NCBI GenBank assembly: GCA_011772865.1
Contig: WVYQ01000020.1
Coordinates: 53,825-101,165 of the forward strand
From: Woeseiaceae bacterium
Lineage (GTDB): Bacteria > Pseudomonadota > Gammaproteobacteria > Steroidobacterales > Woeseiaceae
Length of the DNA: 47,341 bases
Direction of reading: 5' to 3'
A program made the position numbers and the translations under genes. Positions within the stretch are counted from its first letter, which is position 1. Each line of letters begins with the position of its first letter. The notes under the pieces are model-generated. The model had not been told where the DNA came from and did not search any database. It saw only the letters and a list, made by a program, of their open reading frames with translations. Positions 34,828 through 39,389 of this stretch are shown here, one piece after another.

Positions 34828-35562
34828 CTATCGTTGTTTCCCATCGACATGCCAACTCCGAAGGCTTTGAGACGGATGCACCTGTGGCTCTGGCACCGTA
34901 ATTGTGCGGCCAAATCCGGGAGCTCGCGACTCGAAGTACAGCACGAATATCAGCCCGGCAATGATGACGCCGAGCACCGTCGCAATGGCAGATCGATACG
35001 ACGTGACAATTAGTCGAATGCGGTGCCAGTTTATCGACTTGTCGCCGACGACGACGTCATAGGCACGTATCGGCTCAATAATATTTCTGAGATGTTGCAG
35101 TCCCAGAGGTTTGAAACGGCAGCCCTGCTCTTTCTTGACCTGGGCATGCATCAGTCCGGAGACCACGATACCTCCGGCATTGGCAATTTTCTGCAGCCGA
35201 GCCGCCGTGTTGATGACGTCACCAAACAGGTTTTCTCCATCGAAGATCACGTCGCCGGCGTGCAGACCGATGCGTGCCTGCAGGTGGCAGCCGGAATCGT
35301 TCTGGCAACCCTGGGATTCCAGGGCTTGTTGGAAGCTGCGCGCAGCCCTGAGAGCCTCTACCGGGCTCTGAAATTCGGCCATCAGGCTGTCCCCAACGCA
35401 ACCGAACTCACGGCCGTGAAACGACGTCACGCAGTGCCCGAAAGTGTCGCGACAGTCCTTTAGCGCTTCGACGGTACTTTCGCCATCGGTTTCCACGAGC
35501 TGGCTGTAGTTTGCGATATCCGCCGCCAGGACCGCCGCGTAGCGATGGCCTAGTCCACTCAT
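34828..35562 (-). CDS. Membrane-anchored class III nucleotide cyclase
   Basis: A 244-residue protein with an N-terminal cyclase homology domain (about 5-172) and a single C-terminal membrane helix (about 193-211). Metal-binding Asp15 (LAADIANYSQL) and Asp58 (CVGDSLMAEF) are present, as are Asp115, Asn118 and the transition-state Arg122 in FGDVINTAARL. The purine-selecting Lys expected four residues before Asp58 is Gly54, so nucleotide preference is uncertain. The membrane helix lies after the catalytic domain, the reverse of most bacterial cyclases. It is divergent from a Crp/Fnr-family regulator (116-base gap), suggesting a cyclase-receptor pair. Confidence 0.88.
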   Translation of the reverse strand: MSGLGHRYAAVLAADIANYSQLVETDGESTVEALKDCRDTFGHCVTSFHGREFGCVGDSLMAEFQSPVEALRAARSFQQALESQGCQNDSGCHLQARIGLHAGDVIFDGENLFGDVINTAARLQKIANAGGIVVSGLMHAQVKKEQGCRFKPLGLQHLRNIIEPIRAYDVVVGDKSINWHRIRLIVTSYRSAIATVLGVIIAGLIFVLYFESRAPGFGRTITVPEPQVHPSQSLRSWHVDGKQR

Positions 35563-35678
35563 ACGTTGATAGCCTGACTAACACAGTATCCGCAAAAGTT
35601 CTGTTCGGAGATGTACTTATACTTATTGACAGATCGCGGCTGGCAGTCCTAAGTAACCGGCAGGGTTGCAAAGAATTT

Positions 35679-36374
35679 ATGTCCGACCTACCTATAGCCG
35701 CCATTCTCTCGCACAATTTCCTGTTCGAAGGATTGCCGGATTCGATCATTGACGAGATCGCGTCACTGGCTCACAGATCCAGGCTTTCGAAAGGGACCCT
35801 GATCTTCTGTCAGGGCGATGACGGCGATGCACTGTACGGCATAGCCTCCGGCAGGGTTCGTATATTCACGGCCGATGGAGAGGGCCACGAGGTATTTCTG
35901 AACGTCCTCGGACCGGGGGATACTTTCGGTGAAATTGCCCTGCTCGACGGCCTGCCCAGGACAGCCAGCGCGATAGCCGTTACGCCGTCCGTGCTCGTTG
36001 TCATCCCGAGGCGGCAATTCCTGGCTTATCTCGATCACCAACCGAAACTGGCCCTGCATCTGATGGTGTTGTTGTGCGAACGGCTTCGCTGGGTCAGCAA
36101 CCTGCTGGAGGACACAAGTTTTCTCGCGGGGCCTGCGCGCGTCGCCAAGCGCTTGACCGTTCTTGTCGAGCGTTACGGCAGACCGGCTGGCGGAGGCGGA
36201 ATCGAACTGAGGATTTCCCAGGCGGACCTGGGTCATTTTCTCGGCATTTCACGGCAGATCGTCAATCACTATCTGCGGGACTGGTGCGAGCGCGGGTGGA
36301 TCACGTTGAAGCGCGGTCGAATCATCATTCATGACTCGAAGGCCCTCGAAGGCATCTTTGTGTCAACTAGTTGA
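35679..36374 (+). CDS. Crp/Fnr-family transcriptional regulator
   Basis: A 231-residue regulator. The cyclic-nucleotide-binding barrel (about 13-115) keeps the phosphate-binding cassette FGEIALLDGLPRTA (83-96), with the ribose-binding Glu85 and phosphate-binding Arg94, so a cyclic nucleotide ligand is likely. There is no Cys cluster of the FNR type. The dimer helix is about 120-145 and the winged helix-turn-helix about 176-215; its recognition helix reads SRQIVNHYL, where E. coli CRP has SRETVGRIL, so the operator should differ from the CRP site. ATG at 35679 gives the family start. A perfect palindrome spans its stop codon. Confidence 0.93.
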   Translation: MSDLPIAAILSHNFLFEGLPDSIIDEIASLAHRSRLSKGTLIFCQGDDGDALYGIASGRVRIFTADGEGHEVFLNVLGPGDTFGEIALLDGLPRTASAIAVTPSVLVVIPRRQFLAYLDHQPKLALHLMVLLCERLRWVSNLLEDTSFLAGPARVAKRLTVLVERYGRPAGGGGIELRISQADLGHFLGISRQIVNHYLRDWCERGWITLKRGRIIIHDSKALEGIFVSTS

Positions 36375-36381
36375 CACAAAG
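36356..36381. promoter_or_regulatory. Perfect 26-bp palindrome, putative operator (site 1)
   Basis: CTTTGTGTCAACT (36356-36368) is followed directly by its exact reverse complement (36369-36381). The core is TGTCAA-CTAG-TTGACA at 36361-36376. It spans the last codons and TGA of the Crp/Fnr-type gene. Symmetry, length and location suit a dimeric winged-helix regulator. A hairpin terminator is an alternative: an 11-bp stem with a CTAG loop could form, but the nearest T run (36390-36394) is separated by eight bases. Confidence 0.75.
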
Positions 36382-36400
36382 CCCAACAATTTTTCGAACG

Positions 36401-36416
36401 TGTCGTCAAGTTGACA
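36401..36416. promoter_or_regulatory. Second operator-like site (site 2), 40 bp from site 1
   Basis: TGTCGTCAAGTTGACA shares 13 of 16 positions with the core of the upstream palindrome (36361-36376), including the outer TGTC and the whole TTGACA half. The start-to-start distance is exactly 40 bp. A weak -10-like AATAAG at 36459-36464 would put this site about 62 bp before a start point, the class I position for Crp-type activators. No -10 fits either TTGACA as a -35, which argues for operator rather than promoter elements. Confidence 0.5.
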
Positions 36417-36490
36417 GACATCGTCGTGGCTGCGGGGGAGCCTGTGACAAAGCGGGGCAATAAGGCCACGCTGAACACCGGGAGACAGTC

Positions 36491-37063
36491 ATGATCACTC
36501 CGCAACGCCTTAGCAAGTATTTGCTCGTGACGGTCGCCATGCTGGCAGTTTCCTTAACGGCTTCTGCCTACGAGGTCCGGGTAATGACTGGCGAGGGCTC
36601 AGAATCCAAAGCGCTCGACAGGGGCGACTATGACCTTGCGATTGAGCGGCTGGAGCTACGGACCAAGAGCGACTCGCCAACTATCGACATTCAACTCACG
36701 AACCTCTGCACGGCGTATGTCGTAACCAGCCAGTTCGACAAAGCCCGAGACGTATGTGACCGGGCGATCGAGGCTGACGGGGATTTCGTCGGTACGGCCT
36801 ACAACAGCAGAGGCGTCCTGAATGCTTTGACAGGCGATTACATCGCAGCACTGGACGACTTCGCAATGGCGGCCGACCAATCAAACTATCCGAAACCGCG
36901 CGTATATTTCGGCGATAAGGCGCCATCGATGCAGCGCTTCGGCACAACTACTGTCGACGTTGAACAATCGATCGAACTGGCCGCACAGAACCTGCAGTTC
37001 GCGGACAGGCGCTGGGCTGCCGTCAAGGAAGACAGCGAAGACCTTACGGCGGGAATGCGCTAG
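36491..37063 (+). CDS. Secreted TPR-repeat protein, function unknown
   Basis: A 190-residue protein with a Sec signal peptide (core LLVTVAMLAVSLTASA, cleavage near residue 26). It carries about two to three tetratricopeptide-like repeats: KALDRGDYDLAIERLELR, then LCTAYVVTSQFDKARDVCDRAIE, then YNSRGVLNALTGDYIAALDDFAMA. A good ribosome-binding site (GGGAGA) precedes the ATG. It is the first gene after the regulator and its palindromes, and a terminator follows. Periplasmic location and a scaffolding role are inferences. Confidence 0.85.
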   Translation: MITPQRLSKYLLVTVAMLAVSLTASAYEVRVMTGEGSESKALDRGDYDLAIERLELRTKSDSPTIDIQLTNLCTAYVVTSQFDKARDVCDRAIEADGDFVGTAYNSRGVLNALTGDYIAALDDFAMAADQSNYPKPRVYFGDKAPSMQRFGTTTVDVEQSIELAAQNLQFADRRWAAVKEDSEDLTAGMR

Positions 37064-37091
37064 CCGAATTTCGTCGCACTACCCCTGCGAC

Positions 37092-37120
37092 ATGGCCGGC
37101 CTCGCGCCGGCCATTTTATT
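37092..37120 (+). terminator. Rho-independent terminator after the TPR gene
   Basis: A perfect 9-bp stem, ATGGCCGGC (37092-37100) with GCCGGCCAT (37106-37114), encloses a CTCGC loop and is followed by TTTATT. It lies about 30 bases after the TPR stop codon. The T tract is interrupted by one A, so read-through into the next genes is possible. Confidence 0.78.
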
Positions 37121-37187
37121 TGGACCGGGACGAAGTGAACTCGATTTCGGGCGGCGGTACTATACTTGCCGAAACAGGAGGGAAACG

Positions 37188-37379
37188 ATGAGCCACAGGC
37201 CATACTGTGCCGTGTCCGGCGGGCTGTTCGCACTGGTTGCTTTGGCCCACCTTTGCAGAATCGGGTACGGCATGTCAGTCCACGTTAATGAATACCCTGT
37301 ACCAATGTTCGTGTCCTGGATCGCCTTCATTGTCCCGGCCGCATTGGCGGCCTGGGCGTTCAAGATGATTCGGCAATGA
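37188..37379 (+). CDS. 63-residue two-helix membrane protein
   Basis: A small protein with two predicted membrane helices (about 8-25 and 38-58) separated by a short loop with YGMSVHVNEYPVPM. An excellent ribosome-binding site (AGGAGGG) lies 6 bases before ATG 37188, which decides the start although the frame is open to 36960. TATACT at 37161-37166 is a possible -10. Its stop overlaps the next gene by 4 bases (ATGA), so it is coupled to the oxidoreductase. Family unknown to me. Confidence 0.8.
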   Translation: MSHRPYCAVSGGLFALVALAHLCRIGYGMSVHVNEYPVPMFVSWIAFIVPAALAAWAFKMIRQ

Positions 37380-38491
37380 TCGATCGGCCACGACGCCAAT
37401 TTCTCGGCACGGTTGGGGCAGGCGCTGTTGCCGGTGCCCTGGGTAGTCTGGGTCTGTTAACGACAAGAAGAGGTTTCGCGCAAATGACAAATACGATTCG
37501 TTGGGGTGTGGTTGGTACCGGCGGAATTGCCAACTCGATGGCGCGAATGATCAAGCTGGCTGACAACGCGGAACTGGCTGCCGTGTCGAGCCGACGGATG
37601 GAAACTGCGCGGGAGTTTGCGGACGAACACGGCGTGCCCAACGCCTTCGATTCGTGGGAGGAAATGTCGGCATCGGATGTGGTGGACGCGATCTACGTCG
37701 CGACTCCGACGAGCGTGCGCGAGGAAATCTGTATCGCGGCGGCCAGCAATGGCAAGCATGTCCTGGGCGAAAAACCGCTCGCAAGCTTGCCCTCGGTTCG
37801 ACGCATCACCAATGCCTGCCGCGACAACAATGTCGCATTCATGGACGGCACGCATTTCGTGCATCATCCCCGCACCCTGGACATCAAGGCGAACCGTGAA
37901 GAGCGGCTCGGCTTCGTATGGTCGGTGGCATCGGCCTTTCAGTTCAATCTCCCGGACAAAGGCAATATTCGCTTCAACCCGGAACTCGAACCGATGGGCG
38001 CGATCGGCGATGCCGGCTGGTACAACATGCGTGCGGCGGTCGAGTACCTGCCGCCCGACGTCGAACTCGATACGGTTAGCGCTCATGTGCGGCGCGACGG
38101 CGAAACCGGCGCCGCGATCAGTGGCACCGGCGTTCTCGACTTTACTGATGGGTCGACTTCAACATGGAATTGCGGCTTCGACTCCGGCGCCGTGGTCATG
38201 GACCTGCGCATCACGGGCACGGCCGGTGTCATCAATATCGACAATTTCCTGTCGCAGAATGCCGATGGCTCGGCGGATTTCCTCTATCGCAAAGGCGGCT
38301 GGGGCCGGGGCGCGAATGAGACGATCACGATCCCGTCCGCCAAGCCCGGCGCTGCCCTGATGTTCGAAGACTTCGCGGCGGCAGCGCACGATCCGTCGCT
38401 GCGCGAACAGTGGATGATTGCAACGGAACGCACGCAGGCATTGCTCGACGCAATCTGGATGGCGGCGCTGGAATCCGAAAAAAGTGATTGA
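37376..38491 (+). CDS. Tat-exported Gfo/Idh/MocA-family oxidoreductase
   Basis: A 371-residue NAD(P)-dependent dehydrogenase of the Gfo/Idh/MocA family. It begins with a Tat-type signal, PRRQFLG followed by TVGAGAVAGALGSLGLL, so it is probably folded with cofactor and exported to the periplasm. The Rossmann motif WGVVGTGGIANSMA follows, then the catalytic GEKPLA box and a conserved MGAIGDAGWYNM. Exported members often act on sugars or glycans with a tightly held NAD(P). Neighbours are a 63-residue membrane protein (ATGA overlap) and a predicted outer-membrane protein. The substrate is unknown. Confidence 0.9.
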   Translation: MIDRPRRQFLGTVGAGAVAGALGSLGLLTTRRGFAQMTNTIRWGVVGTGGIANSMARMIKLADNAELAAVSSRRMETAREFADEHGVPNAFDSWEEMSASDVVDAIYVATPTSVREEICIAAASNGKHVLGEKPLASLPSVRRITNACRDNNVAFMDGTHFVHHPRTLDIKANREERLGFVWSVASAFQFNLPDKGNIRFNPELEPMGAIGDAGWYNMRAAVEYLPPDVELDTVSAHVRRDGETGAAISGTGVLDFTDGSTSTWNCGFDSGAVVMDLRITGTAGVINIDNFLSQNADGSADFLYRKGGWGRGANETITIPSAKPGAALMFEDFAAAAHDPSLREQWMIATERTQALLDAIWMAALESEKSD

Positions 38492-39389
38492 TACGCGGCA
38501 CGCCGCCAGGGCGGCCATGCTAGTAGCTTTCCTCTATGCGGGCGCCTCAAATCAGGCATTCGCTCAGGACCTCGAGCCCCGGCGCTGGACGCCTCTGCCA
38601 CCCGGGCTGAATGTCGCGGGCGCGGGTTATGCCGCGACACGCGGCGACGTGTTCTTTGACCCGGTGCTGCTGGTTGAGGACGCCGAACTCGACGGCCACA
38701 TGCTCGGCGTGTCCTACGTTCGCTCATTCAACATCGCGCAGAAATCCGCGCGTATTGACGTGACCGTGCCATGGCAAAACCTGGAGTGGACCGGACTGCT
38801 CGATGGCGAGCCGGCAACGGCCTCGAGGGTCGGGTTGGCCGATCCGTGGGTCCGCCTGTCGATGATTCTCGTAAATCGTGGTTCCGGCGAGCCCGGGTCG
38901 CCTGGCACGGTTGTCGGTGTGGCGCTGGCAATGGGACTGCCGCTCGGTGAATATCTTGAGGGCAGGCTGCTCAACGTCGGCGGCAACCGGTTTGTTGTTC
39001 GCACCCAGGTGGGCATCGTCCATACGCGCGGCAAGTGGGCCTACGAGTTGACGGGTTCGGCCTTTCTCTATGACGACAATGACGAGTTCCTGGTCAACTC
39101 GACGCTCGAACAGGACCCGCTGTATGCGACACAGGGGCACATCATTCGTTTCTTCGACAAGCCCGGTTGGTGGGCCGCTCTTAGCGCCGGATATGCATGG
39201 GATGGCGAAACCCGGGTCGACGGCGTCCGGTCCGATAATCCCAAGCGCCTGTTCCTGTCCGCGGTGTCCGTGGGATTTCCGGTAGGCCAGCGGCAAGGCC
39301 TGAAAGTCACCTATCTGAGAAGCAGGACCAAAACGGACAGAGACGCCGACACCGATTCGCTGGCGCTCGCTTTTTCACACCGGTTCTAA
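38484..39389 (+). CDS. Predicted outer-membrane beta-barrel transporter-like protein
   Basis: About 301 residues with a signal peptide ([20 protein letters not shown]), then alternating strands typical of a beta barrel, ending [11 protein letters not shown] with the C-terminal Phe expected of outer-membrane proteins. It resembles the transporter family described as putative MetA-pathway of phenol degradation (PF13557): [24 protein letters not shown] near the start, AMGLPLGEY in the middle. GTG at 38484 overlaps the oxidoreductase stop by 8 bases; ATG at 38517 is an alternative. Its 3' end overlaps convergent rpoS by 4 bases. Confidence 0.82.

Follow-up and report, generated by a model that had tools for sequence, protein, structure and literature searches.

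A CRP/FNR-superfamily regulator in a Woeseiaceae bacterium and its probable tandem TGTC-N8-GACA operators upstream of a TPR gene

Genes and features of the locus

The DNA analysed here, which we call the window, is a stretch of 47,341 nucleotides from the 3.26 Mb draft genome of a Woeseiaceae bacterium. The features considered are listed in Table 1. A gene for a regulator is flanked on one side by a divergent gene for a nucleotidyl cyclase and on the other by a gene for a TPR protein, and of two palindromic sequences one overlaps the 3' end of this gene while the other is located between it and the TPR gene.

Table 1. Features of the regulator locus, in window coordinates
Feature	Position	Strand	Basis or remark
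Class III nucleotidyl cyclase, divergent from regulator	34828..35562	-	Pfam PF00211 2.2e-11
CRP/FNR-superfamily regulator, 231 aa, cyclic-nucleotide-binding domain and Crp-type HTH	35679..36374	+	Pfam PF00027 7e-27, PF13545 5.6e-15
Phosphate-binding cassette GEIALLDGLPRT (G84 E85 ... R94 T95)	35928..35963	+	Alignments; Clr pocket residues
Recognition helix SRQIVNHYL	36249..36275	+	Conservation in alignment; helix placed by analogy with CRP
Operator site 1 (putative), perfect 26-bp palindrome	36356..36381		Core 36361-36376, TGTCAACTAGTTGACA
Operator site 2 (putative), TGTCGTCAAGTTGACA	36401..36416		Centre 82.5 bp 5' of TPR start codon
TPR gene (probable target), product of 190 aa with hydrophobic N-terminus	36491..37063	+	Pfam TPR_1 4e-07; export judged by eye
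Terminator-like hairpin 3' of TPR gene	37092..37114	+	Consensus scan only

The regulator and its cyclase

The regulator combines a cyclic-nucleotide-binding fold and a Crp-type HTH in one protein, with both Pfam matches above cut-off, which places it in the CRP/FNR superfamily. Its best sequence match in the PDB is 3d0s (6e-36), which we take to be the CRP of M. tuberculosis. The S191, R192, Q193 and N196 residues of the recognition helix are invariant among 30 aligned proteins picked from at least 120 relatives. The cassette, according to the alignments, has the Gly-Glu and Arg-Ser/Thr residues of cyclic-nucleotide-binding CRP proteins, at G84, E85, R94 and T95; the pocket residues named for Clr are G85, E86, R95 and S96 (PMC10127613). 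At the C-helix pair corresponding to T127 and S128 of CAP, in a register read by eye, the window regulator has Val-Ser; by the same reading, Thr-Ser is found in 18 of 32 other regulators and Val in four (L102, L103, L116 and L117).

The regulator is patchily distributed, being found at E <= 1e-60 in only four of 107 genomes of the host family, host included, and no relative was found in viral contigs. The host genome contains seven further matches to it. No paper on this regulator group was found among the matches listed in the open-licence literature.

The cyclase is 244 aa long with a C-terminal membrane-like stretch, and is presumed to be the source of the ligand. Residues D15, D58, N118 and R122, which we take to be metal-binding and catalytic, are invariant among seven aligned cyclases. 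A class III cyclase occurs in 19 of 30 regulator regions, window included, as judged by a profile made from the loci themselves and in regions of unequal length. Pfam confirms four of the five cyclases submitted to it (window, L102, L107 and L118), and those of L107 and L118 are CHASE2 types. The stop-to-stop cyclase frames of L102 and L103 are 802 and 889 codons long, as against 244 aa in the window, and that of L102 contains TPR repeats. In L124 (2995-6315), a single open frame fuses a CRP-type regulator, whose helix has Arg-Glu, to a cyclase-like domain and to TPR repeats; the cyclase-like part has no Pfam cyclase match and is 30% identical to the window cyclase (E 1e-21).

On sequence grounds we consider cAMP the likely ligand. 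The residues that we take to be the usual base-selecting ones are not evident in the cyclases of these loci, and because of this and of the Val at the position of Thr127 in E. coli, cGMP or another nucleotide is possible; the Val itself suggests that the ligand may not be cAMP.

The two palindromes

Site 1, CTTTGTGTCAACTAGTTGACACAAAG at 36356-36381, is a palindrome with two 13-nt arms that match at 100%. It is the longest perfect palindrome of the window, and none of 200 dinucleotide shuffles contained one of 26 bp, the longest being 24 bp. Site 2 agrees with the core of site 1 at 13 of 16 positions and lies 40 bp from it, start to start. The initial annotation had described a perfect 26-bp palindrome, a second site matching at 13 of 16 positions and a spacing of 40 bp, all of which is borne out by the sequence. 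It also placed both sites directly after the regulator gene; site 1, however, overlaps the last codons of the regulator, with the TGA stop (36372-36374) inside the palindrome. The end of site 2 is 74 nt from the TPR start codon.

A pair of TGTC-N8-GACA sequences 30-50 bp apart was found in none of the 200 shuffles. The count of single TGTC-N8-GACA sequences in the window is weak evidence, at three compared with 0.69 expected and with three or more in 4 of 100 shuffles. We also scored the window with a motif built without it from 39 sites in related loci. These sites were selected on their TGTC/GACA arms and include five found by site search (L127 and L128) as well as related rows, so that only the remaining positions are informative; among these, A at position 5 is found in 48 of 78 half-sites, compared with 10 of 62 in 31 background sites from the host genome. 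Site 1 scores 26.5, the highest in the 47 kb, and site 2 is second with 16.8, the next being 13.4. The score of site 2 is unremarkable, given that the best of 28 control loci reaches 15.0 and that two sites within coding sequences of the host genome score 18.2 and 16.4, and the case for site 2 is thus one of position, not of score.

Recurrence of the sites beside related regulators

Relatives were taken from 12 loci of a contig scan and from those genomes of the order that have a match at E <= 1e-40, which are 24 out of 396 with the host included. Requiring a profile score of >90 bits and setting aside duplicates by contig, and also L128, which was discovered through its sites, gave 32 regulator genes besides that of the window. 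Of these 32, 21 have a TGTC-N8-GACA sequence no more than 600 bp away, a count in which related rows (L116/L117, L110/L118) are not independent of each other. Eleven regulators have no exact site within this distance. Three are at contig edges (L105, L112 and L113) and one (L103) has a site with one mismatch, which leaves seven with neither excuse: L115, L121, L122, L123, L124, the second copy of L039, and L040. All of these keep the Arg-Gln helix except L124, the one family member with an Arg-Glu helix, which has no TGTC-N8-GACA in its 11.8 kb.

We also made an unbiased count, up to a distance of 1200 bp, of all 3328 combinations that 256 half-sites form with 13 spacers. TGTC-N8-GACA comes first by number of loci, in 21 of 31 without the window, and second by total, with 34 occurrences behind CGGC-6 with 37. 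The lead by loci is thin: the runner-up is found in 20, and GC-rich half-sites are close behind. In 23 loci that contain other CRP-family genes and served as controls, the combination occurs three times and ranks 412.

The position of the sites relative to the regulator varies. Eleven other regulators (L109, L110a, L111, L114, L116, L117, L118a, L119, L039, L041 and L043) have one site at their start side, which suggests autoregulation, and L120 has one site at its end side.

Tandem pairs and their neighbours

The 396 genomes were searched for two sites separated by a gap of 18-32 bp; by their handles, these were taken to be the same 396 genomes as those searched for the regulator. The pattern is found in 15 genomes, and its reversed control in two. 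Tandem pairs occur in 11 of the 24 regulator-bearing genomes (10 of 23 without the host), compared with 4 of the 372 others (Fisher 3.7e-12, window included). Three of these four (G107, G015 and G236) have a pair and no regulator in the examined stretches of approximately 16 kb, and in the fourth, G076, a regulator-like fragment adjoins three sites.

Seven tandem loci were measured (Table 2). The remaining eight tandem genomes comprise the three just mentioned that have no regulator and five (G133, G168, G210, G216 and G076) with paralogue-type triple sites upstream of a regulator, 44-45 and 71 bp apart.

Table 2. Geometry of the seven tandem loci measured
Locus	Pair spacing (bp)	Near-site centre to ATG (bp)
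Window	40	82.5
L102	42	85.5
L104	38	82.5
L106	37	79.5
L107	40	78.5
L108	38	84.5
L127	38	85.5

In all seven loci the centre of the near site is 78.5-85.5 bp 5' of the start of a small, probably exported protein. The ATG chosen is the one at the head of a signal-peptide-like stretch, and nearer possible starts also exist in L104, L107, L108 and L127. L127 is on a different contig of its genome (G165) from the regulator, whose contig stops 38 bp past the matched domain. With 10.5 bp to the turn, the spacing of 37-42 bp amounts to 3.5-4.0 turns, and the arrangement of dimers on the same face of the helix, suggested earlier from the window, is therefore not conserved.

Beside the tandem sites, two of the loci encode a TPR protein and the other five a short peptide whose end is Cys/Trp-rich. 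The TPR protein of the window and its positional counterpart in L045 share 42% identity across 176 aligned positions. The short peptides (L104, L106, L107, L108 and L127) are probably exported, are 57-91 aa long from the chosen starts, and end in a motif such as GCCYVFFAGHWICVPC. The three tandem-locus peptides submitted to Pfam gave no match, and a database search with that of L127 returned two proteins, one of them itself. In L104, L107, L108 and L127, a divergent protein of approximately 100 aa is encoded on the far side of the pair, the distance between its start and the other site being 71.5-117.5 bp; that of L107 has no match in Pfam.

Beyond the TPR gene, the initial annotation had allowed for control of the following cluster. 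We consider this unlikely, in view of the terminator-like hairpin after the gene and of what lies downstream of it in the two TPR-bearing relatives, which appeared different when compared by eye on maps that reach about 750-790 bp further. The scan found five terminator-like sites, with 3.1 expected. A scan of 35000-38500 for sigma-70-like promoters found none, and a common -10 element at a fixed distance was rejected (best summed match 17, shuffled mean maximum 18.2).

We note two further groups of sites. Paralogous regulators (L110:6348-7022, L118:8001-8675, L125:2608-3270, L126:8001-8666 and L128:8137-8550) keep the SRQ helix and have the triple TGTC sites, which in L110b, L118b, L125 and L126 are at the start side. 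They have lost cassette residues, and hence, judging from sequence, may recognise this operator with no need of a cyclic nucleotide. In a 16 kb stretch of L129, TGTCGTTTAAACGACA occurs three times, with one near match in addition (6265, 8001, 8039 and 11131); the regulator is absent from this stretch, and the repeats are probably another operator system.

Comparison with known regulators

CooA, a CO-sensing CRP/FNR activator of Rhodospirillum rubrum and other bacteria, has an operator given as TGTC-N8-GACA (PMC7306483) or TGTC(A/G)N6(C/T)GACA (PMC5371261), and as TGTCGGCNNGCCGACA in Desulfovibrio (PMC545781). The window sites have the TGTC-N8-GACA pattern of this operator, and the CooA helix (SSRQ in 1ft9) has the Arg-Gln pair in common with the window regulator. 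The sensors differ: CooA is described as binding heme and as being without the region that matches residues 72-82 of E. coli CRP (PMC12937710), whereas the window regulator has the cassette and adjoins a cyclase.

Clr of Sinorhizobium meliloti is a CRP-family receptor for cAMP and cGMP (PMC10127613, PMC13001267), and its system comprises the CHASE2 cyclases CyaD1, CyaD2 and CyaK and a target, smc02178, reported as being of unknown function (PMC10127613, PMC13001267, PMC5498481). CHASE2 cyclases are likewise found near the relatives in L107 and L118. The core motif reported for Clr is GTNNCNNNNGNNAC, with more than 100 candidate sites (PMC10127613), in contrast to the one local pair in the window, where GTCAACTAGTTGAC and GTCGTCAAGTTGAC have neither C at position 5 nor G at position 10.

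Cmr of M. tuberculosis, an autoregulator of the CRP/FNR superfamily, binds TGTCAGCGTGCTGACA, which resembles the window motif; unlike the window regulator, it is reported to be without 15 of 17 cAMP-pocket residues, and it is impaired by nitrosation (PMC5499769). E. coli CRP and 3d0s have the fold and the cyclic-nucleotide cassette in common with the window regulator, and the helix of 3d0s has Arg-Glu in place of Arg-Gln. The CRP operator is TGTGA-N6-TCACA, compared with TGTCA-N6-TGACA in the window, and neither window site fits it.

The operator pattern and Arg-Gln pair are thus those of CooA and the sensor is not, while the circuit resembles that of Clr and its CHASE2 cyclases with a different operator.

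Alternative explanations

The sites could instead belong to a different regulator in the cell, either a CRP or a protein like CooA, since the motif is the printed CooA consensus, it resembles the Cmr site and there are further regulator matches in the genome. We regard this as improbable: the sites track the regulator gene across genomes and in differing neighbourhoods, the CRP-type TGTG-N8-CACA occurs in none of 32 loci, and the host genome shows no enrichment of the motif. There, 33 single TGTC-N8-GACA sites compare with 27 in the reversed control, and TGTCA-N6-TGACA occurs once compared with twice, so that the wider regulon that further genome copies might have indicated is not seen. Among five of the 33 read in context, four lie inside open frames (L137, L135, L133 and L132) and one, in L134, is intergenic and in our view PHO-box-like.

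It is also highly unlikely that site 1 serves to terminate transcription, or to form an RNA hairpin, where the regulator gene ends, with site 2 being incidental. Folding of the RNA predicts a stem of 11 bp that carries a 4-nt loop (z-score -2.42 over a 151-nt stretch), and five T in a row are found 8 nt past the stem; against this, the terminator scan does not report the palindrome, and a search of Rfam gave no match. Relatives keep only the TGTC/GACA arms, the four inner pairs being complementary in 28-59% of the 39 arm-selected sites and the full palindrome being present in one, which argues against a conserved role as a terminator only. Furthermore, the pairs in L104, L106, L107 and L108 are upstream of genes and 300-520 bp away from the regulator.

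Chance palindromes with no function are scarcely credible, for although single sites are common (33 in the genome) and some in coding sequences score as high as site 2, the shuffles produced no such palindrome or pair, and motif and position recur in most relatives, though not in all.

A proposed local circuit

We therefore return to tandem operators read by the adjacent regulator, in a small local cyclase/CRP-type circuit that acts on the TPR gene and recurs in related bacteria, as the reading that is very probably right. The recognition of TGTC-N8-GACA by this regulator and its action on the TPR gene, both proposed in the initial annotation, are supported by comparison: by the recurrence of the sites beside related regulators, the co-occurrence of tandem pairs and regulator, the CooA-like Arg-Gln pair and consensus, and the distance of the near site in the seven loci. 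From the sequence, conservation, co-occurrence and neighbouring genes observed, we infer binding, ligand, ligand source, and activation rather than repression, as follows. The divergent cyclase would make a cyclic nucleotide, which the regulator would bind; its Arg-Gln recognition helix would read TGTC(A)-N6-(T)GACA, and one dimer per site would set transcription of the TPR gene, most likely as an activator. The start of this gene is 82.5 bp past the centre of site 2.

A broader version, which we offer as a speculation of low probability, is a patchy, self-contained circuit. A membrane cyclase would sense an outside cue, and its nucleotide would drive a regulator with CooA-like reading at the tandem operators. 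The sole output would be an exported small protein (the TPR protein in the window, the Cys/Trp-rich peptide of 57-91 aa in relatives), which may feed back on the outer domain of the cyclase.

On the main reading, the association of an Arg-Gln helix with TGTC arms would be linked to a CRP protein of the cyclic-nucleotide type, beyond CooA. The Woeseiaceae, reported to be widespread in the sediment of the sea (PMC7082342), would have in this locus a compact and testable circuit leading from a cyclase to an exported protein.
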